Source: Bacteroidota bacterium (lineage in GTDB: Bacteria; Bacteroidota; Bacteroidia; Chitinophagales; Chitinophagaceae). From it: a stretch of DNA of 64,000 nucleotides. Location: assembly GCA_029558715.1 (NCBI GenBank), contig JAKQEA010000190.1, positions 1-64,000 of the forward strand, in the 5' to 3' direction. Of this stretch, positions 3,651 to 17,800 are shown in pieces (within the stretch, counting starts at the first letter, position 1; every line of letters starts with the position of its first letter). Both the position numbers and the translations under genes were made by a program. The notes beneath the pieces were generated by a model. That model was not told where the DNA came from. It saw only the letters and a program-made list of their open reading frames with translations, and ran no database searches.

Positions 3651-6600
3651 ATGAAGAAGTCATTAAGCCTGATTGCCTGTCTTTCCCTTTTCCTTTCTAT
3701 GGAAACTGCAGCACAAGTGAATACGGTGGAATTCGGAAAAAACCGGGTTCAGTACCAGAAATTCAAATGGAAATATTACCAGACAGAAAATTTTAACAGC
3801 TATTTCAGCCAGGATGGTTTGGGACTGGGAAAATATGTTGCCCAGGTTGCTGAAGCAGAGCTGCCCTCTATTGAAGAATTTGTGGAATATGGACTCCAGC
3901 GCCGGATCAATATCGTTATTTATAACAATTACGATGAAATGCAACAGTCCAATATCGGCATTGGCATTGACTGGCAAAATACCGGCGGTGTTACCAAACT
4001 GGTGAACAATAAAATGATCATTTATTATGATGGCAACCATGATAATCTCCGCCGGCAGATAAGGCAGGGAATTGCCCGTAACCTGGTAGAGAACCTGCTC
4101 TTTGGAGATGATCTCGGGGAGTTTGCAGCTAACCAGGCCTTACTTGATCTTCCCAAATGGCTGACTGATGGATATATTTCCTATGCTGCTGAAAGCTGGA
4201 ACACTACACTGGATGATGATCTGAGGGGTGTGATGCTGGCGGGCAGTTACCGGAATTTTTACCAGTTTGCATTTGAAAAACCATTACTTGCCGGGCATTC
4301 TTTCTGGAAATACATTGCCGATAAATATGGCAAAAGCAAGACCACTTACTTCCTGTACCTGGCCCGCATTTACCGTAACCTGAACAATGCTTCCTATAAG
4401 ATCGCTAAAAAGAAATTCAAGGTCATCCTGCGGGATTTTATGACGGATGTACAGGCACAATATTTTAAGGATATACGTGGCCGCCGAAATACACCAAGGG
4501 GTCAGCTTTCAGTAAGTGAATACATAGGTAAGAAAGATTATATCCGTTTTAATGCAAACCCTGTTCCCCGAAGCTTTACTTATGCCGTGGTTGAATTTAA
4601 CCAGGGCCGCTACCAGGTAGTGTTGATGGAAAATTTTGTAAACAAAAAAGTACTTCTGAAACTGGGTGTACGTTCAAGGGAAGATGATAAACATCCTAAC
4701 TATCCTATTCTTGCCTGGGATGGCAAGGGTACCCGGTTAGCTGTGTTATATAATGAAGAAGGAAAAACAAAATTCTTTGTGTACGACCTGGTGAACAGGG
4801 TGAAGTTATGGAAACAGGAGATCGACAAATTTGACCAGGTACAGGACATGAAATATATGCTTGATAACAATACCCTGTTGTTAAGTGCCGTAAAAAGCGG
4901 GCAAACCGACATATTTGTTTACAAGATCGATAAACAAACCGTAGAACAGATCACCAACGATGTGTATGATGACCTGGACCCTTCCTTTGTGGCCTTCCCA
5001 AATAAAACAGGTATCATCTACTCCAGTAATCGTCCGTCAGCTACCGCTGCCAGCAGTGACGACTCATTACCCGGCAGGCATTTCAATATATACCTGGTTG
5101 ACAACTGGAATAAATCGGAAGCCAAGCAAATATCAAAGCTTACTGATCTGAAACTGGGCAATGCAAGATTTCCTTCCCAATACAACACTTCCCATTTCAC
5201 TTTTATCAGTGACGAAAACGGAATCAATAACCGCTATGCCGGTTTCTTTAAAACAGAAAGGGCCGGTTTGGATACATTAGTATTCATTGGTGATGAAATG
5301 CTGCGCAATCCGCCGCAAAAAGATGTGGACAGCCTTCTTGCTGAATGGGGCAAGACAGATATTGATTCAGTCGGTTTTGTTTCTATCACTAATGATTCGT
5401 CATACGTATTCCCGCTGACGAATTATCAAAGCAGTATGCTGGAAACAAGAACTGCCGGTGATAACCAGCAGGTGAGTGAAGTGGTAAAGCTTGGTGATGT
5501 AAAACTATTGTACCGTTTAAAAGTGGATGAAAACACACTTCGCCGCCGGAATATAAATGCAAGACCGACTGAATACATCAGGAAAGTGATTGAGGAAGAA
5601 AAGAAAGCTGCCCGCAAAGAAGCAGTACAGACTATCAAAACAGATACTCTGACCAAAAAACAACAGGATTTTTTCAACAGCGGTTTTGAAGAAGATAAGC
5701 CAGACAGCACTAAGAAAGTAGGCGATATGGTGAAAGCAGATGAGATAATCAAAGAATCTGTTCTGAAGAAAGCTAAAGTGTTTGAATACAGACCCCCTAA
5801 GTTTTTCAATGATTATCTCGTCAGCGGATTTAACAATAATATTTTAGTAACCCGTTTTCAACCCTACCAGGGTGGCTATGGCCCGATACAATTGAGTAAT
5901 AACTCTCCGTTGAATGGAATCATCCGGGTAGGAACCTCCGACCTTTTTGAAGACTGGAAATTCGCCGGCGGTTTCCGTATTAGTCCGGATCTCACCAATA
6001 ATGAATACGTATTTACCACGCAATACCTTAAGAAAAGGATAGATTATGGTCTTACCTATTACCGGGTGACAGTAAAAAACCCTGCCTTGTATACCGACTC
6101 TACTTCTTTTAATGTAAAACAATACTCTAATTTATACCAGGCAACAGTAACGTATCCTTTCAGTAAGATCCGAAGCCTGCGTATGAATGTGGGATATCGC
6201 AGTGATAAATATGTAAAACTGGCTAACGAATTTTTCCCTGATGAATCATTGAAGGGCAAAGATGACCGCCTCACTTATGCACTGGCTCATCTTGAATTTG
6301 TACATGATGATGCTATCAGTACGGCGCTGAATATATGGAAGGGGCTTCGGTGGAAAATATACTTCGATTATATAACACAGGTGGGCAAGAATACCAAAAC
6401 AGGAAGCGGAGATTTTCCATACACCATGAACGTTGGGTTTGATGCCAGGCATTACCTGCCGGTATACCGTAATATCACCTGGGCTGTTCGTGCTGCAGCT
6501 GATTTCTCATGGGGTACAAAAAAACTTATTTACTACCTGGGCGGTGTTGACAACTGGCTGATGTTTGGTCAGAATCAGCGTAGCAATGGCTCCTTCCGCT

Positions 6601-7052
6601 ATTTTGATCCTTCCAATACCCCGGACCCCGATGCTGAATATGCATATGAATCTCTGGCAGTAAACATGAGAGGATTCAAGCAGAATGTGGCAAATGGTAA
6701 TAATGCATTTGTACTTAATAGTGAAATAAGGGTGCCTGTATTTACCAGCTTTTTTAATAAACCCATCAATAATGCTTTCTTGCGTAATTTTCAGATAGTA
6801 CAGTTTATAGATCTCGGTACTGCTTGGAATGGCGCTTATGATAAAATAGAAAGGCCTTCGGTTTCGTATACTTCACAGCCGCTTACCGTAAGGGTAAAAG
6901 CTGGTGGTATAGGACCTTTTGCAGGTGGCTATGGCTTTGGGGCCCGGAGTACTTTACTGGGCTACTTCCTGCGCTTTGATGCTGCCTGGGAAATGAATGG
7001 CTTTTTCCAGGGTAAACCGCTTTATTATTTTGCTATGGGTCTCGATTTTTAA
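3651..7052 (+). CDS. Outer-membrane TolB-propeller protein with degenerate peptidase-like domain and C-terminal beta-barrel
   Basis: The 1133-residue product has a signal peptide (MKKSLSLIACLSLFLSMETAAQ) and three parts. Residues about 25-285 resemble the peptidase-MA/gluzincin fold: PKWLTDGYISYAAESW (168-183) matches the usual downstream motif, but the HExxH position is occupied by a non-catalytic stretch near 135-150. Residues about 290-560 form TolB/WD40-like blades, for example DDLDPSFVAFPNKTGIIYSS near 440. A charged linker follows, and residues about 730-1133 look like a BamA-type surface-antigen barrel ending in an aromatic residue (GLDF). The family is common in Bacteroidota and usually called TolB-like; its function is unknown. 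It is probably a surface or envelope scaffold rather than an enzyme. Confidence 0.8.
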   Translation: MKKSLSLIACLSLFLSMETAAQVNTVEFGKNRVQYQKFKWKYYQTENFNSYFSQDGLGLGKYVAQVAEAELPSIEEFVEYGLQRRINIVIYNNYDEMQQSNIGIGIDWQNTGGVTKLVNNKMIIYYDGNHDNLRRQIRQGIARNLVENLLFGDDLGEFAANQALLDLPKWLTDGYISYAAESWNTTLDDDLRGVMLAGSYRNFYQFAFEKPLLAGHSFWKYIADKYGKSKTTYFLYLARIYRNLNNASYKIAKKKFKVILRDFMTDVQAQYFKDIRGRRNTPRGQLSVSEYIGKKDYIRFNANPVPRSFTYAVVEFNQGRYQVVLMENFVNKKVLLKLGVRSREDDKHPNYPILAWDGKGTRLAVLYNEEGKTKFFVYDLVNRVKLWKQEIDKFDQVQDMKYMLDNNTLLLSAVKSGQTDIFVYKIDKQTVEQITNDVYDDLDPSFVAFPNKTGIIYSSNRPSATAASSDDSLPGRHFNIYLVDNWNKSEAKQISKLTDLKLGNARFPSQYNTSHFTFISDENGINNRYAGFFKTERAGLDTLVFIGDEMLRNPPQKDVDSLLAEWGKTDIDSVGFVSITNDSSYVFPLTNYQSSMLETRTAGDNQQVSEVVKLGDVKLLYRLKVDENTLRRRNINARPTEYIRKVIEEEKKAARKEAVQTIKTDTLTKKQQDFFNSGFEEDKPDSTKKVGDMVKADEIIKESVLKKAKVFEYRPPKFFNDYLVSGFNNNILVTRFQPYQGGYGPIQLSNNSPLNGIIRVGTSDLFEDWKFAGGFRISPDLTNNEYVFTTQYLKKRIDYGLTYYRVTVKNPALYTDSTSFNVKQYSNLYQATVTYPFSKIRSLRMNVGYRSDKYVKLANEFFPDESLKGKDDRLTYALAHLEFVHDDAISTALNIWKGLRWKIYFDYITQVGKNTKTGSGDFPYTMNVGFDARHYLPVYRNITWAVRAAADFSWGTKKLIYYLGGVDNWLMFGQNQRSNGSFRYFDPSNTPDPDAEYAYESLAVNMRGFKQNVANGNNAFVLNSEIRVPVFTSFFNKPINNAFLRNFQIVQFIDLGTAWNGAYDKIERPSVSYTSQPLTVRVKAGGIGPFAGGYGFGARSTLLGYFLRFDAAWEMNGFFQGKPLYYFAMGLDF

Positions 7053-7069
7053 GCTCCAAAATTTTGAAT

Positions 7070-7105
7070 AATCACAATCCCTCCCTTGAAGGAGGGATTG
7101 TGATT
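7070..7105. terminator. Bidirectional intrinsic terminator
   Basis: A perfect 15-bp inverted repeat (AATCACAATCCCTCC and its complement) with a 6-base loop sits between the convergent stop codons of the TolB-like gene and the DUF1361 gene. It is followed by TTTTA on the plus strand and an AT-rich tail on the minus strand. It should stop transcription from both sides. Confidence 0.8.
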
Positions 7106-7789
7106 TTAGACAGTAAATGATTCCCCTAATTTTTTAACCGACAAATACAGCAATGTCATAAACACTGCATAGCAAAACGTCATTCCCCATGCAACACTGT
7201 TCTGAAGGGGATTAAAAAGTAAATCACTTATCTCTGAAACAAGGGAAAAAGGATCGGTAATAATATCCCAGCTATTGAACCGCAGATACCGTCCAATATA
7301 AACTCCCAGTGCATTAAGCCACATTACTGCAAACACCAGCATCACAGAAAAATGTCTCCCCCTTATCACTGCAGATATGACTTCTACTTTTCTCAGTGAC
7401 ACAATTCCGAACATAATTCCATTCCATGCAAAAGAAAAGATCAGCAACAGGTCAAACCATTTGGGTGCTGAACGTACCCTCGTAAAATGTACAAGATCGG
7501 TTATAATATAAAAGGCGTTAGGGATGAATAATAGCCATACAACCAGGGCCAAAACAAGTTTCCACCTGTTCTCAATAAAATCAATCCTGCCGGTTACCAG
7601 CTGGGTGATCCCATAAGGCACAAAAGCAAGAAAAAGATTCCAGGGAAGGAAAATATACTCCAGTGAATCAGTAACTATCATCCTTGCAGCCAATAATAAA
7701 CAACTAAAGCCGGAAGATACCAGCAACCAGTGGTGCAGGGTAACAGGCAAAGGAAATCCGGATTTGCGAAGGAATACTGCTTTTATCAT
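7106..7789 (-). CDS. DUF1361 domain-containing membrane protein
   Basis: This 227-residue integral membrane protein has about six helices. It carries the recognisable DUF1361 motifs PWNLFLAFVPYG and FIPNAFYIITDLVH. The biochemical function of the family is not known. It is the last gene of the CreD cluster, and its start overlaps the stop of the DgkA-like gene by four bases (ATGA), so translation is probably coupled. Co-transcription with CreD and a lipid kinase suggests an envelope role, but that is inference. Confidence 0.85.
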   Translation of the reverse strand: MIKAVFLRKSGFPLPVTLHHWLLVSSGFSCLLLAARMIVTDSLEYIFLPWNLFLAFVPYGITQLVTGRIDFIENRWKLVLALVVWLLFIPNAFYIITDLVHFTRVRSAPKWFDLLLIFSFAWNGIMFGIVSLRKVEVISAVIRGRHFSVMLVFAVMWLNALGVYIGRYLRFNSWDIITDPFSLVSEISDLLFNPLQNSVAWGMTFCYAVFMTLLYLSVKKLGESFTV

Positions 7790-8160
7790 ACAATTATTTT
7801 AGGAATAAATATTAAGCTCCCAGTAAGCAGAGCAACGGCAGCCATAACTAATACTGCAGCAGCAGCAATATCTTTAATGAACTTTATTTCCGGATGATCT
7901 TCTTTTGAAATAAGGTCTGTGGTTTTTTCAATAGCAGTATTGATCAGCTCCGTCACCCACACCAAACCCGTAACAATAACCAGTATAATAACTTCAAAGC
8001 GGGTAACCGGAAAAATAATACTCAATACGATCACTGCAACAGTTGCCAGTAAATGCAGTACCGCATTATGCTCCCGTTTAAAAAAGCTGAACATTCCTTC
8101 AAGAGCATAACAGAAACTTTTGCTTCTTTCACTTACCGAGAATCGTTTATACTCACTCAT
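7786..8160 (-). CDS. dgkA: Diacylglycerol kinase / undecaprenol kinase family protein (DgkA)
   Basis: The 124-residue product has three predicted membrane helices and the family signatures ELINTAIEKTTDLI (catalytic Glu and Asn) and KDIAAAAVL. DgkA-type enzymes phosphorylate diacylglycerol or undecaprenol at the inner membrane and so recycle lipid carriers. The N-terminal SFCYALEGMFSFFKREHNAVLHLLA is typical of the Gram-positive/Bacteroidota subtype, which often prefers undecaprenol; the substrate here is not proven. It overlaps both neighbours by four bases and belongs to the CreD operon. Confidence 0.9.
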   Translation of the reverse strand: MSEYKRFSVSERSKSFCYALEGMFSFFKREHNAVLHLLATVAVIVLSIIFPVTRFEVIILVIVTGLVWVTELINTAIEKTTDLISKEDHPEIKFIKDIAAAAVLVMAAVALLTGSLIFIPKIIV

Positions 8161-8918
8161 GCCCGCCAGTTTGATTGACTTGTTAATTGCTTTCCCATAC
8201 CATATGTGGGTTGATTAGCGGATTTCCCTGTCATCATATGCCTGCAGTGTATAAACTCTTTCCAAACATCACCTGCATATTGCTGAAATGAATAACCTCC
8301 GCTTCTTAATACTTTGTAATGCCATAGCCAGACCATGAGAATGGTGCCTGCCATTAGTAAATAATGAACTGTCCCTGAAAAGATTAATGTAAATCCCGCT
8401 TTGCGTTTATACAAACATTCAAGAGTGTAACTCTGAAAACGCAGGTGCATTTCTTCATCTTTTAATACCTGCAGGCATATTTGCTTAAGTATAGCTGACC
8501 GGGTGGCATTGAACAAAGCCTTATAATACACCATGGCTATTATTTCAGCGGTGAGCAATACGGTCACCGAACCCTCTAGCCCTGCCAGTTTTCGTAATCG
8601 CCGGAAAATAGAATCCAGCCAGTCTCTGCCCAGTTTTGGTATCCCCTCACCTTCCATAAACTTTCCTAATATTGCCGCATGATCCTGCTCTTCTTTAATA
8701 AACAGTTTGACAGTCTCTATGTAGCTGGTATCCTGCATACGCTGAGCAAACTGCAGAAAATGCTTCCCCTCAGAATGTTCTCCTCTTTGAAACTGGCGAA
8801 CAGATTGGGAGATATTTTGTTTTTCCTGAGCTGTTAGTGTCTGACAATCTTTCCATTCAAGATGGTCAAAATGGTCACGATTACCCAGGAAATATTGTTG
8901 CCATTGTAAAAAATTCAT
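8157..8918 (-). CDS. Ferritin-like di-iron protein with C-terminal membrane segment
   Basis: The 253-residue product shows a four-helix ferritin-like pattern with a full set of candidate iron ligands: Glu47 and Glu50 (FQRGEHSEGK), Glu77 and His80 (EEQDHAAIL), Glu125 (LLTAEIIAMV), and Glu155 and His158 (KDEEMHLR). After the fold comes a hydrophobic segment (about residues 175-198) that probably anchors it to the membrane. The exact family is not clear to me; some ferritin-like proteins are oxidases or hydroxylases rather than iron stores. The ATG at 8918 is used because the upstream start would run into the creD stop. It overlaps dgkA by four bases. Confidence 0.7.
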   Translation of the reverse strand: MNFLQWQQYFLGNRDHFDHLEWKDCQTLTAQEKQNISQSVRQFQRGEHSEGKHFLQFAQRMQDTSYIETVKLFIKEEQDHAAILGKFMEGEGIPKLGRDWLDSIFRRLRKLAGLEGSVTVLLTAEIIAMVYYKALFNATRSAILKQICLQVLKDEEMHLRFQSYTLECLYKRKAGFTLIFSGTVHYLLMAGTILMVWLWHYKVLRSGGYSFQQYAGDVWKEFIHCRHMMTGKSANQPTYGMGKQLTSQSNWRA

Positions 8919-8947
8919 ACCATCATTTTTGTAATGAAACAATACTA

Positions 8948-10264
8948 TTACCATTCCAGTTTCCGGGAGAAATACATGATGATGCCCAATGCCACAAATA
9001 AACCTATACTGCCCATCAGTAATGCATAATCCTGCAATTGAATAATACTGAATATATAACTGTACACTACAACCAGTACAAAGCTGATAAACAGGGCCAG
9101 TTTTGATGATTTTAATATGCTGCCCACATACCAGCTCACCAGTCCGATAGTAGCGGCACCTGCGATAAGATAAGCCAGGTTGAACCCGGTATACTCAGAA
9201 ACAGATAAGAGCAACGTATAAAATAATACCAGGGCTAATCCGGCAAGACCATATTGAACGAGGTGCAATGATTTTTTGTAAATAGTTTCTACCAAAAAAA
9301 ATGCAGCAAAAGTGAGCATTATACAGAGCAATGCATACTTAACCGAACGTCCGGTTTTATCATAACTATCAACCGGTATCAACAGATCTGCTCCAACCTG
9401 CGAAGAAGAGAAATTGTAAACGGTATTTTTCCAGACCTGTGGTATAGATCGGTTCATATATTTCCATGTAGCAGTGAATCCACTGTCCTTAACTGTCCTT
9501 GTATCGGGTAATCGTATACCCGTAAAACCAGGATCGGGCCAGGCAGACCGCATTTCAATTTTATTTTCCCGGGCCGCCGCAGCAAATAATAATTGCTCAG
9601 ATCCGTTGAGTGAAAATTTGATAGTAAATGATCCGCCGGCACCAGTTGTTTCCGGTAATAATGAAACAGGAGCAATAAAGGCTTCTTCCATTGGAGTTTG
9701 ACCCGCAGCCTGTGGCATAAATACAATATCGCTGTCGTTCCAGTTCAGATGAATATCTTCGTTAATACCCTTTAACTGATCCTGCACCTTAAAAAATAGC
9801 AGCGATTCATTCCATAAAATATTTTCTGCCGGTATATTTAATTTCTCCCATGGAATGCTGTTGAATTTCCCCGACAGGCTGATATCTGTTTTGTAAACCG
9901 CTACTTCATAGATGCCTCTTTTTCTTTTCTCAGGAAATACAGTTGATTGTATGTCGAGTTTATCTGCCATGAAATAAGCATTTGCTTTCTCCCATTGCTG
10001 ATTGCCCTTTTCATCTATTACCGCAACCTTATATGGCAATAACAGTATTGGCCCGGTCACTATTTGTTTACCAGCCCATTTACTGCTGATATCAGTAATA
10101 GCTTCTTTTTGCCTGCTTTCTCTTTCCTTTACCACACCCATTATAAAATAAGTAGGTATCCAGAGTACCATCGCCATTAAAAAAATGACAACACATTTGA
10201 GAAATAATTTCCCTTTATCCCACAGCGGGGATGATCCTTTAATTGTTTCAAAGGTTTCCATCAT
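8948..10264 (-). CDS. creD: Cell envelope integrity inner-membrane protein CreD
   Basis: The 438-residue product has an N-terminal membrane helix (about 20-42), a large periplasmic domain with the conserved opening KERESRQKEAITDISSKW and GPILLLPY, and a C-terminal block of five to six helices from about residue 310. This is the CreD family layout. In enterobacteria CreD belongs to the CreBC regulon and affects envelope stability and sensitivity to colicins and beta-lactams. Here no CreBC two-component system is adjacent; a winged-helix regulator lies upstream instead. The gene overlaps the preceding small membrane gene by 17 bases. Confidence 0.92.
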   Translation of the reverse strand: MMETFETIKGSSPLWDKGKLFLKCVVIFLMAMVLWIPTYFIMGVVKERESRQKEAITDISSKWAGKQIVTGPILLLPYKVAVIDEKGNQQWEKANAYFMADKLDIQSTVFPEKRKRGIYEVAVYKTDISLSGKFNSIPWEKLNIPAENILWNESLLFFKVQDQLKGINEDIHLNWNDSDIVFMPQAAGQTPMEEAFIAPVSLLPETTGAGGSFTIKFSLNGSEQLLFAAAARENKIEMRSAWPDPGFTGIRLPDTRTVKDSGFTATWKYMNRSIPQVWKNTVYNFSSSQVGADLLIPVDSYDKTGRSVKYALLCIMLTFAAFFLVETIYKKSLHLVQYGLAGLALVLFYTLLLSVSEYTGFNLAYLIAGAATIGLVSWYVGSILKSSKLALFISFVLVVVYSYIFSIIQLQDYALLMGSIGLFVALGIIMYFSRKLEW

Positions 10265-10685
10265 TGATTGTTTTATGAATTAAAAAGAAAAATTGTTTTG
10301 CCCTGAAAGCAATGGCCACTATTGCAGCGAGATAAGCAGGCCAGAAGTATAGTAGTGTCTCAAGATTAAGTATTTCGTCAGCAAAAAAAAGTAACAGCAA
10401 GATTAAGTTCATCACAATGGAAGCAACAGCTGCCAGTATCCATAAAAAGAATTTTTCGGAAGATGCAAATCCGGATGTTGTGATACAAAAAAGCAATGCC
10501 CAGGCAATTAAAAAAGAAGGTGATCCTGCCAGCATTATAAAAAACAGGGTTGAAAATAAATCAGGGGCAAACCACCCTGCCTGTCCATATAAAGCAGAAG
10601 AAAAAAACGTATAACCAGTAAGGCCAATCACTAACAGCAGTATTGATACTGTCCATGTATAAAAAGTGTGAAGAAAGAAATTCAT
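10248..10685 (-). CDS. Small four-helix membrane protein of the creD operon
   Basis: The 145-residue product consists almost entirely of hydrophobic segments, consistent with four membrane helices, and ends in a short charged tail. I do not recognise a named family. It overlaps creD by 17 bases and shares one base with the upstream gene, so it is certainly part of the same transcript. Proteins of this type often accompany creD in Bacteroidota, but no function can be read from the sequence. Confidence 0.75.
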   Translation of the reverse strand: MNFFLHTFYTWTVSILLLVIGLTGYTFFSSALYGQAGWFAPDLFSTLFFIMLAGSPSFLIAWALLFCITTSGFASSEKFFLWILAAVASIVMNLILLLLFFADEILNLETLLYFWPAYLAAIVAIAFRAKQFFFLIHKTINDGNL

Positions 10686-11167
10686 CAGTAATAAGTTTGA
10701 TCGTTTGAAGATTCAATAGCATTTATTTTCCTGAGACAGATCCCAAGAGGTAGCAAACCGATGATACCAAAAGAACAATCAATCAGTCGCCACCAGAGGG
10801 GTATTTCCCTGAAATGACCAGCAACAAGGGCAAAAGGAATGATCAGCAGGCAGGCAATCATTCCAAACTCAACCACCCATTTATTTCGAACCGGGTTTTG
10901 TAAAGGACCGATAAATAATATAGCCAGAACAATATGAGCGAAGGCCAGCCAGTCGTAGCCGTAAGCCAGAAACGGATACTCTTTATTAGTATTCATTAAT
11001 CCCTGGTATACTTTATCAAGCCAGTCACCCACAACTGAGCCGGCGGGAAATAGCCTCGTTACAAAAGAAAGTTCTGTTTCTGCAGGAATAGCTGTAGCTC
11101 CGCTCAGGATAAGAATAATTATAAAAAGGATAATCCATCGTCTTATTACTCTTATTTGTTTTTTCAT
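10685..11167 (-). CDS. Membrane protein, first gene of the creD operon
   Basis: The 160-residue product begins MKKQIRVIRRWIILFIIIL and has about four membrane helices; the motif YGYDWLAFAHIVLAILFIGP lies in the middle. The ATG at 11167 is chosen over one at 11191 because the latter lies inside the operator palindrome. The family is not recognised. It heads the unit running through the small membrane gene, creD, the ferritin-like gene, dgkA and the DUF1361 gene, and is preceded by the palindrome at 11178-11194, so it is probably controlled by the winged-helix regulator encoded just upstream. Confidence 0.75.
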   Translation of the reverse strand: MKKQIRVIRRWIILFIIILILSGATAIPAETELSFVTRLFPAGSVVGDWLDKVYQGLMNTNKEYPFLAYGYDWLAFAHIVLAILFIGPLQNPVRNKWVVEFGMIACLLIIPFALVAGHFREIPLWWRLIDCSFGIIGLLPLGICLRKINAIESSNDQTYY

Positions 11168-11177
11168 TTTGAAAAGT

Positions 11178-11194
11178 ACTTTGTATTTCAAAGT
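11178..11194 (-). promoter_or_regulatory. Operator palindrome upstream of the creD operon
   Basis: ACTTTG-TATTT-CAAAGT is a perfect 6+6 inverted repeat with a 5-base centre, starting 10 bases upstream of the ATG at 11167. The same palindrome, within a longer shared block AAAAGTACTTTG-N5-CAAAGT, occurs before the regulator's own unit at 12195-12211. On the minus strand TCACTTTG resembles a -7 element with one mismatch, so binding here would block RNA polymerase. Confidence 0.7.
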
Positions 11195-11211
11195 GAAAGT
11201 ATAAAAAAAAA

Positions 11212-11511
11212 TTACTTCACTCCTTTGATCATATTTTCCAATGCTGTTATGTGATCTGTAAATGCCTTTTCTCCTGACTTGGTAACTGAATAAGTGGTAT
11301 TAGTCTTTTTACCAATGAAGCCTTTGTGCACTTTAATAAACCCATTTTCCTCCAAGTTCACCAGGTGCGTTGCCAGGTTACCATCTGTAACCTCAAGCAT
11401 TTCTTTCAGATCATTAAAATTCACTTCCTCATTCACCATCAAAACACTCATTACCCCAAGGCGAATGCGGCTTTCAAAAACTTTATTTAACCCAGTTATA
11501 GGATTCTTCAT
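11212..11511 (-). CDS. Winged-helix transcriptional regulator (HTH_34/ArsR-MarR-like)
   Basis: This is a compact 99-residue regulator. An N-terminal segment (NKVFESRIRLGVMSVLMV) is followed by helix-turn-helix EEVNFNDLKEMLEVTDGNLATHLVNLEENGFI and the wing KGFIGKKTNTTYSVTKSGEKAF, the standard pattern of the winged-helix DNA-binding family PF13601. It has no ligand-binding extension. Such regulators sit next to creD and membrane genes in many Bacteroidota. The gene follows the membrane gene 11545-12186 with a 33-base gap and probably represses both its own unit and the creD operon through the two identical palindromes. Confidence 0.88.
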   Translation of the reverse strand: MKNPITGLNKVFESRIRLGVMSVLMVNEEVNFNDLKEMLEVTDGNLATHLVNLEENGFIKVHKGFIGKKTNTTYSVTKSGEKAFTDHITALENMIKGVK

Positions 11512-11544
11512 ACATTTTTTCTCCTGACCGAACTGCTCCGGTTC

Positions 11545-12186
11545 TTACTTTCTTTCATATTTTGCCCACATACTGATTCCATAGACTATATGCAAAATAC
11601 CAAAACCAACGGCCCAAAACCACAGGCCGTAGCCAATAAACAACATGTTAATCAACCCTAATACAATTTCGCAATAACCCAGGTACCTTATCTCTGATAA
11701 AGTATACTTACTGGCATTGACAAGTGCCAGCCCATAAAAAATTAAACTGGCCGGAGCAACAAATGCCCATACATCATATCGCAGCATTCCAACAATAAAT
11801 GCTCCTCCTGTTGCCAAAGGTACCAGCATATTCCAGGCAAGCCGTTTTGATGTATGATCCCACAATGGCAAACCTTGTTTGTTTGCCTTGCGCCAGGTAA
11901 AATAATAGGACGAAGCAAATGCCACAACAAAAACGGATGCAGCAACAACCAGCAATTTGATCTTTAACCGGCTGAAATCATCCCCGGAGAAAAAACCACT
12001 ACTGTTATAATCACCATAATAATTATCAAGGATGCTATACGAAATAAATGCTCCTGTCAATGCACATACTCCCGCAGCTACCCCGCTTAATCCGCTCAGA
12101 GAAATAAAACGGCTCGACCGCTCCATAATACGGCGTATGTCTTTTAAGTCCTGTAAAGAATCGGTTTGCTGGTTTGGCTCATGCAT
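11545..12186 (-). CDS. Membrane protein co-transcribed with the winged-helix regulator
   Basis: The 213-residue product begins MHEPNQQTDSLQDLKDIRRIMERSSRFISLSG and then has about six hydrophobic helices. The soluble start with a DLKDIRRIMERSSRF motif is a pattern seen in Bacteroidota membrane proteins encoded beside PadR/ArsR-like regulators. The ATG at 12186 is preferred to the one at 12270 because the latter lies upstream of the operator and candidate promoter. The function is unknown; the pairing suggests that it senses or modulates the signal for the adjacent regulator, which is inference only. Confidence 0.75.
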   Translation of the reverse strand: MHEPNQQTDSLQDLKDIRRIMERSSRFISLSGLSGVAAGVCALTGAFISYSILDNYYGDYNSSGFFSGDDFSRLKIKLLVVAASVFVVAFASSYYFTWRKANKQGLPLWDHTSKRLAWNMLVPLATGGAFIVGMLRYDVWAFVAPASLIFYGLALVNASKYTLSEIRYLGYCEIVLGLINMLFIGYGLWFWAVGFGILHIVYGISMWAKYERK

Positions 12187-12194
12187 AAAAAAGT

Positions 12195-12211
12195 ACTTTG
12201 AATCACAAAGT
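12195..12211 (-). promoter_or_regulatory. Operator palindrome of the regulator unit
   Basis: ACTTTG-AATCA-CAAAGT is identical in both half-sites and spacing to the element at 11178-11194, and lies 8 bases upstream of the ATG at 12186. One half-site overlaps a minus-strand TTACTTTG, which is one base off the -7 consensus TAnnTTTG. A TTTG lies 20 bases further upstream, at 12234-12237, as a -33 element. This geometry fits autorepression. Confidence 0.7.
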
Positions 12212-12237
12212 AAATAAGCCTTATCCATATCTCCAAA
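12206..12237 (-). promoter_or_regulatory. Candidate promoter of the membrane protein/regulator unit
   Basis: On the minus strand TTTG (12234-12237) and TTACTTTG (12206-12213) are separated by 20 bases, close to the Bacteroidota -33/-7 arrangement. The -7 box shares bases with the operator. A start site near 12200 would give a very short leader before the ATG at 12186. Confidence 0.45.
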
Positions 12238-14806: not shown

Positions 14807-17800
14807 TTACTTAGACTTCTTTTTTATGTACTCCTCCCCTTTTATGAGCAATTCTTTAAATTGCTTATCTAGAGCCTTTTTACTGAACTCTTCATCATAA
14901 TAGATATCTGTACCGTCATTATTGGTTTCTAAATTCTTTGCCTCCAGCGAATAAGGTCCTGCAATACCCAAATGGGCTTCCTCTTCCTTCCCATCCTCAT
15001 CATTAAATCCCAACCTGAAAAGAAAAAAACGTTTCTTTTGACCGTCAAATATGGCTTCTTTTTCTCCAAGGTATTCAATCGTTGAAGGGGAATAGTCTTC
15101 ATCGCCGAATTGATACATCTCACTTTCAGCAAAATACTTTTGTGCCAGGTATTTCGATGTGAAAAAAGACTCTTTCTTAATCCTTTTGAGCCCCTCATAT
15201 AAATCAAGCCTGTATTCTTTATCTGCAGCTACTTTTTCAATTTCCCTGGCATCAACCTGTTGATCATTCTTTAACAGACAGGTTACAGCCGTTTTCTTTA
15301 GAAAAATATCCGGGTGAGCAGCATATCTCTGTAGCATTTTGTTAGACTCAGTTGTATTAAGTTCGCCCAGCAAATGAAGCAGGCTTTCATAAGGCCAGGT
15401 CCATATATCCTCTCCTTTCAATGTTTGACCAACCAGTAGTGTATCTGCAATAAAAAGAATATCCTTTTCATAAGGTTTTATTATAGAAGGTTCAACAGTA
15501 TTGCTATCAAGTAAGGTGGAAGTATAATTAGCAACATCCTCCCAGAAATCACCATTTTTTAATAACACCAGGATATCAGGATATAATATTCTGGCAAGAT
15601 CCAATGAATCTGTAATACCATAACCAATAGAACTTCTGTTGCCCAGGTTAGTTGGTGTCTTTTTTACAAACAGATCTTTTAATGTGGCATAAGAGTAAGT
15701 AGTCTTATAGTCCACCAACAGGTTCAACATAGCCAGTTTATCACTTCCCCTGTCACCCAGTTTTTCATAATTATCTTTTATAAAATCAATCGTGCTGCTA
15801 TCGGATAAACCATCGAATACATTGATCAGTTTATTTCTCACTGAACCGTAGTATAAGGTATCATCAGGATAAGACGCCAGGAAAGCCTTGTGTAAAACCG
15901 GAAGATCCGCCTTTACAAAAGACACTTTGTCCAGCATATACTTTGCATTTTCTGCGGTGGCCGAGTCTTTGGACTGAAGCGCTTCGAGCAATTGTTTTGC
16001 TTTGCTGGTAAAAATTGTTGGTTTCTGCTGATCGTTCCTGATGCTGAATCTGCTGAAGAAATCGTTATGTCTTGTATCATTAACATGCTGGGAAGGCACA
16101 AATGTTATTAAGGTGTACAATGTATCTCCATGAAGGAGATATCTCATTCGCTTTAAGTTATTACTTCCCGGAGATTGCACTACCTGCTCTACTCCTGCTA
16201 TATTCCCATTTCTTACGTTAATATAACTAAGAACAGAATCACTATATCCTTTTGCTTCATTCGCTTTTGCTTTATAAAAACTGGTGTCAGCTTCTGCCCA
16301 ATAAAATGCAGGTAATTTATCTTTTACAACTTCATAAGAAATGGCTTCATTTGCGTTGTAGCTGGTATAATGGACCCTTGTACTGTCATCTTCATCTCCT
16401 TCTTCCTTTTTTGCCCGCTCAAATTTTGCAGGAGCCCAACCGCTGAAAGTATTATCATCCGCTGATTGCAGCGTATAATTAACAGGTTTATAATCGGTAA
16501 GCTTAAGGGAATTAAAAAAATAATCAGGACCACTATCTTCTTTCAGTGATTTGTGCCCCAATACCATCAGGGAATATACCCGGTTACCCCTTACAACATT
16601 CATTGTTCTATAGAATAATGATTCTTCATCCGATTCAGCATCAAATCTCATTGAAGGATATCCATTATGTAACCCTGTTTCTTCTCTTAGCTTTGTTATT
16701 TTATCTTTTAGCAGGTTCTCTTTAAACAACTCAAAAAAAGACGAATCGCCATCAAGAAAGTGGCCTGCATTAATATCTCGCACCTGGAAAAGATAATAGA
16801 GGCCTGCCGCAAGATCAGTGCAGTCAAAAACGGAAAAGGTCCAACCCGATCCCTCTGCCTGTTTTTCAAAGCTTTTATTCCTTTTAGGTGTAGAAGGCAA
16901 CAGTACTGACACTGCTTTTTCCGGAAGAGAAAACTCTTTCCAGTTGCTATGCTTTGTTCCCGTTTGTGTTTTACCGGTTTTGAATGAGTAAAAGAATTTA
17001 TCAGCATCTGACGTATTCAACTTATTCTTATTATCACCTCCCATCATCAGGAAGAAAGCTGTATTTCCTTTTTTCAATACCTGTACCCGGAAGTTCACCG
17101 ATGGCGCTGTTACTATACCTTCCACACCTTTTATATCGTTCCTGTCTACTTTCCGGGTGCTTTCCAGCCTGCCGGTTCTGCTCATTGATTTTGTCATCTC
17201 TTTCAATGCATCAGCCAGTTTATCATCTTCATACTGTGCAATGGTATGCCCGGTCATATAATAGGTCATGGTAGTGATATCTACAAAGACCTTCATCTTC
17301 ACCAACTCTCCAAATAAATTATACTCAGAAGGAATACCCGGCATATCGATAGAATACAAACTATCTGCCTGGCCCACCTCATACCAGGAAGCCGAGGGCA
17401 ATTTTTCAGCATACTTTTCTGCCGCCATTGTATTACCCGAAATAACAGGTGTGACCGTATATCCTTTGTTTCGCAATAATTTTATTACACCGGAATCTCC
17501 CGGTAGGTGTGCAGCCCCGACAGCATAGAACATACTTCTTATGTGACTCAAACTATCAATGCTTCTTGACATTTTGAGATTTCTATTGTTAAATACAATA
17601 GTTTTTGCTTTTGCAGAACCATACCTTTCCAGGTAATCCTCTATACGGTTCATATCCTGCGCCAGGTAAATTTTGATCATATTTTCTAATGAAAACATCA
17701 TCTTATCCTCTGGCAGTTTCATTTCTTCTTCCTCATCAATGTCTTTTCCTAATTCATCCCTGATGTTCAGCTGATCTTTCACTTCCTCCACGGCTCCCAG

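Follow-up and report, generated by a model that had tools for sequence, protein, structure and literature searches.

Why should a small DNA-binding protein have the same palindrome both in front of its own transcription unit and directly behind its own gene? The question is raised by a stretch of 64,000 nucleotides from a member of the Bacteroidota (the whole of which we call the window). Its minus strand encodes, in order, an operator, a membrane protein, a winged-helix regulator, a run of nine T, 8 nt, a second operator and then a small membrane protein, a 145-aa protein, CreD, a ferritin-like protein, DgkA and a DUF1361 protein. An earlier, sequence-only reading of the window had proposed a closed circuit, in which the regulator and its membrane partner are autorepressed and the same regulator controls the creD operon. 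Our comparison of genomes points the same way: a small DNA-binding protein found in Bacteroidia seems to govern both its own expression and an adjacent operon of membrane genes via two copies of one site. The regulatory features of the window are the following.

12233 to 12237, minus strand: TTTGG, read from the sequence as the -33 element of the upstream promoter
12206 to 12213, minus strand: -7-like box TTACTTTG, overlapping the first operator half-site
12190 to 12211, minus strand: upstream operator ACTTTGTGATTCAAAGTACTTT, comprising the palindrome at 12195-12211 and a third half-site
11545 to 12186, minus strand: membrane partner, 213 aa, about four predicted transmembrane segments
11212 to 11511, minus strand: HTH_34 winged-helix regulator, 99 aa
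11203 to 11211, minus strand: tract of nine T directly after the regulator stop codon
11195 to 11202, minus strand: 8-nt spacer between the T-tract and the downstream operator
11173 to 11194, minus strand: downstream operator ACTTTGAAATACAAAGTACTTT, comprising the palindrome at 11178-11194 and a third half-site

The operator is a palindrome with a third half-site

The two inverted ACTTTG/CAAAGT sites noticed in the sequence-only reading are exact matches. ACTTTG-N5-CAAAGT occurs at 11178-11194 (ACTTTGTATTTCAAAGT) and 12195-12211 (ACTTTGAATCACAAAGT) on the plus strand, and both palindromes are perfect. The starts given earlier, 11172 and 12189, lie outside the palindromes themselves and take in an AAAAGT prefix, which turns out to be conserved in its own right as a third half-site on the minus strand. 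Read on that strand, the full element is ACTTTG-N5-CAAAG-YR-CTTT, the palindrome followed by the conserved third half-site. The reported gap of 8 to 10 bases to minus-strand start codons also holds, the partner ATG (12186-12184) lying 8 nt from its palindrome and the ATG of the first gene of the creD operon (11167-11165) 10 nt from the other. Within the palindrome the half-site centres are 11 bp apart, a spacing that would suit one winged-helix dimer. The possibility that the palindrome functions mainly as an RNA hairpin was rejected by inspection, since conservation extends beyond it to the third half-site and the YR step.

The 4.02-Mb genome that contains the window (G000) has three exact copies of the 17-mer, namely the window pair and one at C22:5297, and all three bear the extension; the window holds exactly two mismatch-free copies of the extended element. 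With up to three mismatches allowed, the extended element has 8 matches in the window against 1.27 expected, a number reached by 0 of 100 shuffles, and the 17-mer alone, with up to two mismatches, is not above chance there (5 matches, 5.05 expected). Among 98 genomes of the family, the 17-mer alone is just weakly enriched (147 sites against 85 with a reversed control), so that the extension is needed for enrichment; the extended element has 164 matches, in 66 of the 98 genomes, where its reversed control has 0. These genomes are a sample, as are a set of 295 genomes and one of 395 from the class. The scan of related genomes that the sequence-only reading had suggested thus recovers the motif, and in most loci it is placed around the regulator unit.

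The operator goes with the regulator rather than with creD

Regulator orthologues, defined by a score of at least 89 bits (a 65.6-bit partial match in G022 was scored as absent), occur in 68 of the 98 family genomes and CreD in 54. Regulator orthologue and extended operator are both present in 64 genomes, the regulator alone in 4, the operator alone in 2 and neither in 28 (Fisher p = 5e-18, a value that overstates an association better called strong than exact, since the genomes are related and not independent). One of the operator-only assemblies is 83% complete, and in the other (G059) the regulator is cut by a contig end. The extended operator was not found in G020, G041 and G048, which have creD and no orthologue of the regulator; G059, where the regulator runs off the contig, is the fourth genome with creD but without a scored orthologue. 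From this co-occurrence, and from the absence of the operator in creD genomes that have no orthologue, we conclude that the operator goes with the regulator.

The placement of the two sites is conserved as well. The upstream site, with at most one mismatch, is present in 71 of 74 family loci (73 relative regulator genes and the window), mostly 620-780 nt before the regulator and directly before the partner ATG, with two at about 200 nt. The downstream site, with the same tolerance, is present in 66 of the 74, mostly about 316 nt after the regulator start, which is just behind the regulator stop codon. Forty further loci from other families of the class have the upstream site in 37 cases and the downstream site in 35, and the circuit is found in many families of Bacteroidia. 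This recurrence of the pair at the same places across the class makes the regulator-operator circuit well supported, and we infer from it that the protein binds both sites and represses. The closed circuit proposed earlier thus stands in two respects, the motif being found where the regulator is and the two sites lying, in most loci, on either side of the partner-regulator unit; it does not stand in so far as the two sites are taken to be equivalent, as set out below.

Several choices define the sets of sites used in what follows. L125, where a wrong nearby site had been picked, was left out, which gives 70 family upstream sites, and L166 and L171 were kept although their sites lie just 202 and 188 nt before the regulator. 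At L104 (G091) the downstream site lies 1.4 kb on, behind an inserted gene, and is excluded from the downstream count. The downstream criteria differ slightly between the family count of 66 of 74 and the set of 101 sites and 114 loci; by the criteria used, no downstream site was found in 13 of the 114 regulator loci. A set of 35 dispersed sites omits L217, L218 and L223, and its search pattern required the third half-site, so that the presence of that half-site there proves nothing. Four loci (L169, L170, L172, L173) carry a second, more distant regulator copy (55-60% identity) with an upstream and downstream pair of its own, in which TCTTT is the third half-site at the downstream site.

The regulator and its membrane partner

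The assignment of 11212-11511 to a winged-helix regulator is borne out by the PF13601 profile, which matches residues 16-95 with 96.3 bits (cut-off 27). The structure model is a confident winged helix (pLDDT 91) that ends in a helix, and its closest solved folds are PH1061 (1ub9) and then the PadR protein Rv3488, which superposes at 1.4 A. The sole PadR-type NCBIfam match of the regulator reaches 21.4 bits against a cut-off of 101.8.

The membrane partner has a homologue before the regulator in 70 of the 73 relative loci; a start at TTG 12270 was rejected in favour of the ATG that is conserved in these relatives. No Pfam match was found for the partner itself. Thirteen partner homologues have weak scattered Pfam matches, including LiaF-TM at 0.49 in one of them, and HAAS/DUF1700 models were not found in the 13 (Pfam, E up to 0.5).

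The same genome contains a paralogue, C110 (L012, near 15101-15385; 35% identity), behind two putative membrane proteins. It was considered as a second user of the operator and rejected, as the palindromes at its locus are different ones and a normal hairpin follows the gene; it probably belongs to a separate circuit.

The upstream site lies in a promoter

The upstream sites carry the features of a Bacteroidetes sigma-A promoter, a -33 TTG and a -7 TAnnTTTG at a spacing of about 20 nt. In the window, the TTTG that the sequence-only reading placed 20 bases upstream of the second palindrome is the TTTGG at 12237-12233. A -33 TTG is found at 67 of 70 family upstream sites, 28 of 37 upstream sites from the rest of the class and 22 of 35 dispersed sites. 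The first T of the -7 box (position -2) is present at 64, 36 and 31 of these sites, respectively, and the second base of the box is T, not A, in 63 of 70 upstream sites. Tracts of six or more T are rare at these promoter-type sites (family 3/70, class 2/37, dispersed 4/35). In a start-site map of F. psychrophilum the -7 box lies at -12 to -5 (PMC9723704). By this reckoning the upstream transcript of the window would start near 12201, inside the operator, so that bound protein should block initiation.

The downstream site has a phased T-tract and no promoter signature

The downstream operator, which in most loci lies between co-directional genes, looks different. Among 101 downstream sites, only 9 have a -33 TTG and 45 the first T of the -7 box, and the sigma-A promoter signature was thus not found there. 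What these sites have is a T-tract. The earlier reading made no mention of the nine T between the regulator stop codon and the downstream site of the window, which end 8 nt before the palindrome. A tract of six or more T is present at 95 of the 101 sites, A5TTT takes its place at 4, and neither TTG nor tract is present at 2. The tract is locked to the operator and not to the stop codon, because its last T is at -9 in 83 of 96 sites, although the gap between stop codon and tract ranges from -2 to over 130 nt (median 1); in most loci the tract lies about 9-17 nt before the first half-site. A T7 starting at most 5 nt from the stop codon is found in 74 of 114 regulator genes, as opposed to 4 of 688 other ORFs in the same loci. 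Across 395 genomes of the class, T7-N7..10-operator occurs in 74 (control 1) and AAAAATTT-N7..10-operator in 9 (control 1); the latter pattern has 11 sites, 9 of which have the regulator in their locus.

Two conventional readings of the tract were rejected. An ordinary intrinsic terminator would call for a hairpin, and as a rule none precedes the downstream tract (mean z -0.11 over 96 sites, of which 11 have a hairpin of at least -4 kcal/mol stability next to the tract). A promoter that uses the tract as its -33 element and the third half-site as its -7 box was dismissed by inspection, with a spacing of about 23 nt and an unfit box.

Individual loci vary on this theme. At L272, L273, L275-L277 and L279 an A run ending in TTT replaces the tract, with the same 8-nt spacing and directly behind the regulator stop codon; by eye, these variants nearly match the usual tract in reverse complement. 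At L326, L356 and L368 (Flavobacterium), L288 and L289, a hairpin that resembles an intrinsic terminator (of the AATAGCTG/CAGCTATT type) is followed by a T-tract abutting the operator, and a -33 TTTGG lies within the hairpin region, so that terminator and regulated promoter seem to share bases. L231 (G002 C7) has a tract-type site away from the regulator, with a hairpin-like repeat, T6, 8 nt and the operator followed by a dgkA-like gene. Further tract-type sites lie 126-283 nt behind an unrelated gene (L291, L292, L304), and at L303 the nearest upstream ORF of at least 80 aa is on the opposite strand.

Two genomes, G082 and G089, have creD apart from the regulator, and the in-phase tract at creD is absent in both. 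G082, which has lost the downstream site behind the regulator, has at creD a TTT before the first half-site, TGG at -25 to -23 and a T6 run ending at -7, on a contig that starts 219 nt before the site. The creD site of G089 has neither a promoter mark nor a phased tract. These genomes, two cases only, lean towards control of read-through at the downstream site.

Tract and operator were also sought together in a genome collection, without information on the regulator. T7-N8-operator was found in at least 118 loci, at no fewer than 123 sites. Among the matches listed, 104 of 123 sites have the regulator just upstream in the same direction (70 of 83 sites in the first 80 loci), and 3 of these 104 have a -33 TTG. 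TTG is present at 11 of the 19 other sites listed, 5 of which have less than 300 nt of upstream DNA, and several of the 19 have by eye a hairpin before the tract, as for a neighbour's terminator overlapping an ordinary promoter. All but two of the loci among the matches listed are from Bacteroidota, the exceptions being a Calditrichota MAG (L325) and the gammaproteobacterium Saccharospirillum salsuginis (L351), both with the regulator, an upstream and a downstream operator and the T-tract. The Saccharospirillum locus (6128-7200, 59% G+C) encodes a partner homologue (26% identity) and has a one-mismatch upstream site and, behind the regulator, an exact downstream operator preceded by T7 and 8 nt. 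Retention of the tract in a host with other promoter rules argues, as one case, against a role tied to the Bacteroidetes sigma factor.

The creD operon and other candidate targets

The genes behind the downstream operator of the window are as follows.

10685 to 11167, minus strand: small membrane protein, first gene after the downstream operator
10248 to 10685, minus strand: 145-aa membrane protein without a family
8948 to 10264, minus strand: CreD (PF06123, 457.6 bits, cut-off 23; NF008712)
8157 to 8954, minus strand: ferritin-like or R2-like protein, a weak match (NF006200, 18.8 bits, below the cut-off of 194)
7786 to 8160, minus strand: DgkA, diacylglycerol kinase (PF01219, 108.2 bits)
7106 to 7789, minus strand: DUF1361 membrane protein (PF07099, 130.5 bits)

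The first of these genes likely starts at ATG 11167, as the listed TTG 11191 falls inside the operator. Of the targets named in the sequence-only reading, CreD, DgkA and DUF1361 recur on the same strand in 46, 40 and 36 of the 73 relative loci, some of which are cut by contig ends, whereas the ferritin-like gene has a homologue in 1 and is a local addition. By the same count, the small membrane protein has a homologue in 10 loci and the 145-aa protein in 2.

Other targets exist besides this operon. The third exact operator of G000 (C22:5292-5313, L001) is of the promoter type and precedes a gene for a 99-aa membrane protein, homologues of which stand at or near like sites in other genera (70% at L307, where the regulator is present too, 48% at L182 and 49% at L219). 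Genes behind dispersed sites encode DUF2809, a VIT-domain protein, a protein with a serine-hydrolase/beta-lactamase fold and several small proteins without Pfam matches that by eye are membrane proteins; a DUF4153 protein stands behind a tract-type site. The regulon thus looks like one of mostly membrane and envelope genes.

The CreBC system recognizes the cre-tag motif TTCAC-N6-TTCAC, and control of creD through this motif was rejected. The window contains 0 exact matches and 2 with one mismatch, both far from creD, where 4.27 are expected.

Proposed combined control of initiation and read-through

We consider it about an even bet that the HTH_34 protein represses initiation at the upstream site and, as a roadblock at the downstream site, controls read-through into the operon. 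Comparison of loci supports the operator, the upstream promoter, the downstream site without a promoter signature and the phased tract; from these we infer binding, repression, stalling, release and a signal. The 99-aa protein would bind ACTTTG-N5-CAAAG-YR-CTTT and, at the upstream site, cover the -7 box in the promoter shared by partner and regulator, repressing both. Bound at the downstream site, behind its own stop codon, it would most likely stop RNA polymerase coming from the upstream promoter. The T-tract, a U-tract in the RNA, would lie beneath the stalled polymerase and favour release, and the creD-dgkA-DUF1361 operon would thereby stay silent. An envelope signal relayed via the membrane partner may then make the protein leave both sites, so that initiation rises and read-through opens at the same time. 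In its full form, this would be a hairpin-less bacterial switch terminator, comparable to the Pol I T-rich element with its Reb1 site but under signal control, in which a repressor behind its own stop codon halts polymerase exactly over a release tract and one 99-aa protein sets both initiation and read-through, kept across Bacteroidia and in one gammaproteobacterium; this stronger proposal is tentative, and its chances fall somewhat below even.

Read-through control is favoured at the downstream site because promoter marks are absent, the site would lie in the path of the upstream transcript, the tract would give a U-tract and there are precedents. Bacterial roadblocks are established for LacI, PurR, GalR, CcpA and CodY, with Mfd removing stalled polymerase, and the authors of a LacI roadblock study consider that sequence upstream of the roadblock may matter (PMC4132739). 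The Chlamydia repressor YtgR blocks read-through at an operator in the trpR-trpBA intergenic region (PMC6504234). In yeast, pausing of Pol I occurs in T-rich sequence 15 bp before a Reb1 site (PMC12366685), and the position 15 bp upstream of the downstream palindrome is inside the T-tract. Other observations count against the roadblock. Pol I stalled by Reb1 on T-rich sequence in vitro is released only with an upstream hairpin (PMC12366685), and hairpins are mostly absent at downstream sites. A-rich variants of the tract (4 of 101 downstream sites; 11 sites in 9 of 395 genomes) speak against a pure U-tract model, as a role in DNA structure would predict them, and read-through is less likely at L291, L292, L304 and L303.

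These same three points keep alive the main rival, that the downstream site is an unusual internal promoter, with an A/T tract in its spacer instead of a -33 element and with initiation there repressed by the regulator; we regard this as possible but not probable. Some Bacillus and chlamydial promoters gain from T-tracts or AT-rich spacers. An element of DNA structure would suit the A-rich variants ending in TTT that occupy the place of T8, the near-constancy of the tract at downstream sites, where so few have neither tract nor TTG, and the tract-type sites that are not directly behind a co-directional gene. Against this rival, the first T of the -7 box, conserved at upstream and dispersed sites, is not conserved at downstream ones. 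A rule of "TTG or tract" also fails elsewhere, as 3 of 70 family upstream, 9 of 37 class upstream and 11 of 35 dispersed sites have neither. In addition, a gammaproteobacterium retains the tract, and the six sigma motifs of F. psychrophilum, in the part of the report available to us, are described without a T-tract class (PMC9723704). We think it improbable that the downstream site is instead an auxiliary operator, with the regulator bridging two sites and the tract bending the DNA for looping. Two like sites about 1 kb apart in most loci, and the occurrence of both A-rich and T-rich tracts, would fit such a loop, which leaves unexplained why, across families, the downstream site keeps its place behind the regulator and before the next gene and why the upstream site has no tract; a 99-aa winged helix would also offer little room for a tetramerisation domain. 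Least probable of all is that the operator belongs to another regulator or that the palindrome is a by-product of -7 boxes. The half-site ACTTTG does resemble a -7 box, and the 17-mer alone reaches just 1.7 times its reversed control, but the extended element (164 against 0) tracks the regulator in the 98 genomes and is missing from the three creD genomes without an orthologue, and the downstream copy lacks a -7 context.

Relation to known systems

A literature search for this operator, judged from titles and the starts of abstracts, found no paper, and a search for PF13601 found no mention of it. The comparison presented here assigns an operator, a membrane partner and an envelope gene set to an HTH_34 family. 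The phased T-tract before the operator offers a way to test whether polymerase release in cells is tuned by the sequence directly preceding a roadblock. Should the downstream site be a promoter instead, it would represent a Bacteroidetes promoter class without a -33 element, to be looked for in start-site maps.

In E. coli, CreD is a target of CreBC. The circuit described here differs from that system in that the cre-tag is not above chance in the window and the regulator belongs to another family. A closer parallel in composition is provided by the HAAS-PadR dyads, in which a small PadR-like winged-helix protein is likewise encoded with a membrane partner, as a proposed envelope-stress pair (PMC11237479); in the present pair, however, no HAAS/DUF1700 Pfam model fits the partner, and by score the regulator is an HTH_34 protein.

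In the trpR-trpBA locus of Chlamydia trachomatis, as here, an operator separates a regulator gene from the remainder of its operon, and upstream transcripts end there when the repressor YtgR is bound (PMC6504234). Unlike here, that repressor is not the product of the upstream gene and the site also controls a mapped promoter; a phased T-tract is not mentioned in the available part of that account. The Pol I terminator shares with the downstream site a T-rich stretch just upstream of a protein roadblock, formed by Reb1 or Nsi1, with pausing 15 bp from the site (PMC12366685). That terminator is constitutive and has an RNA hairpin further upstream, whereas the downstream sites are mostly hairpin-less and their proposed roadblock is a regulated repressor. 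Finally, LacI bound at O3 limits expression of its own gene as a polymerase roadblock at the operator (PMC3711431). There the roadblock acts on the repressor's own transcription, whereas here a site placed after the stop codon would spare the regulator and shut off the genes behind it.
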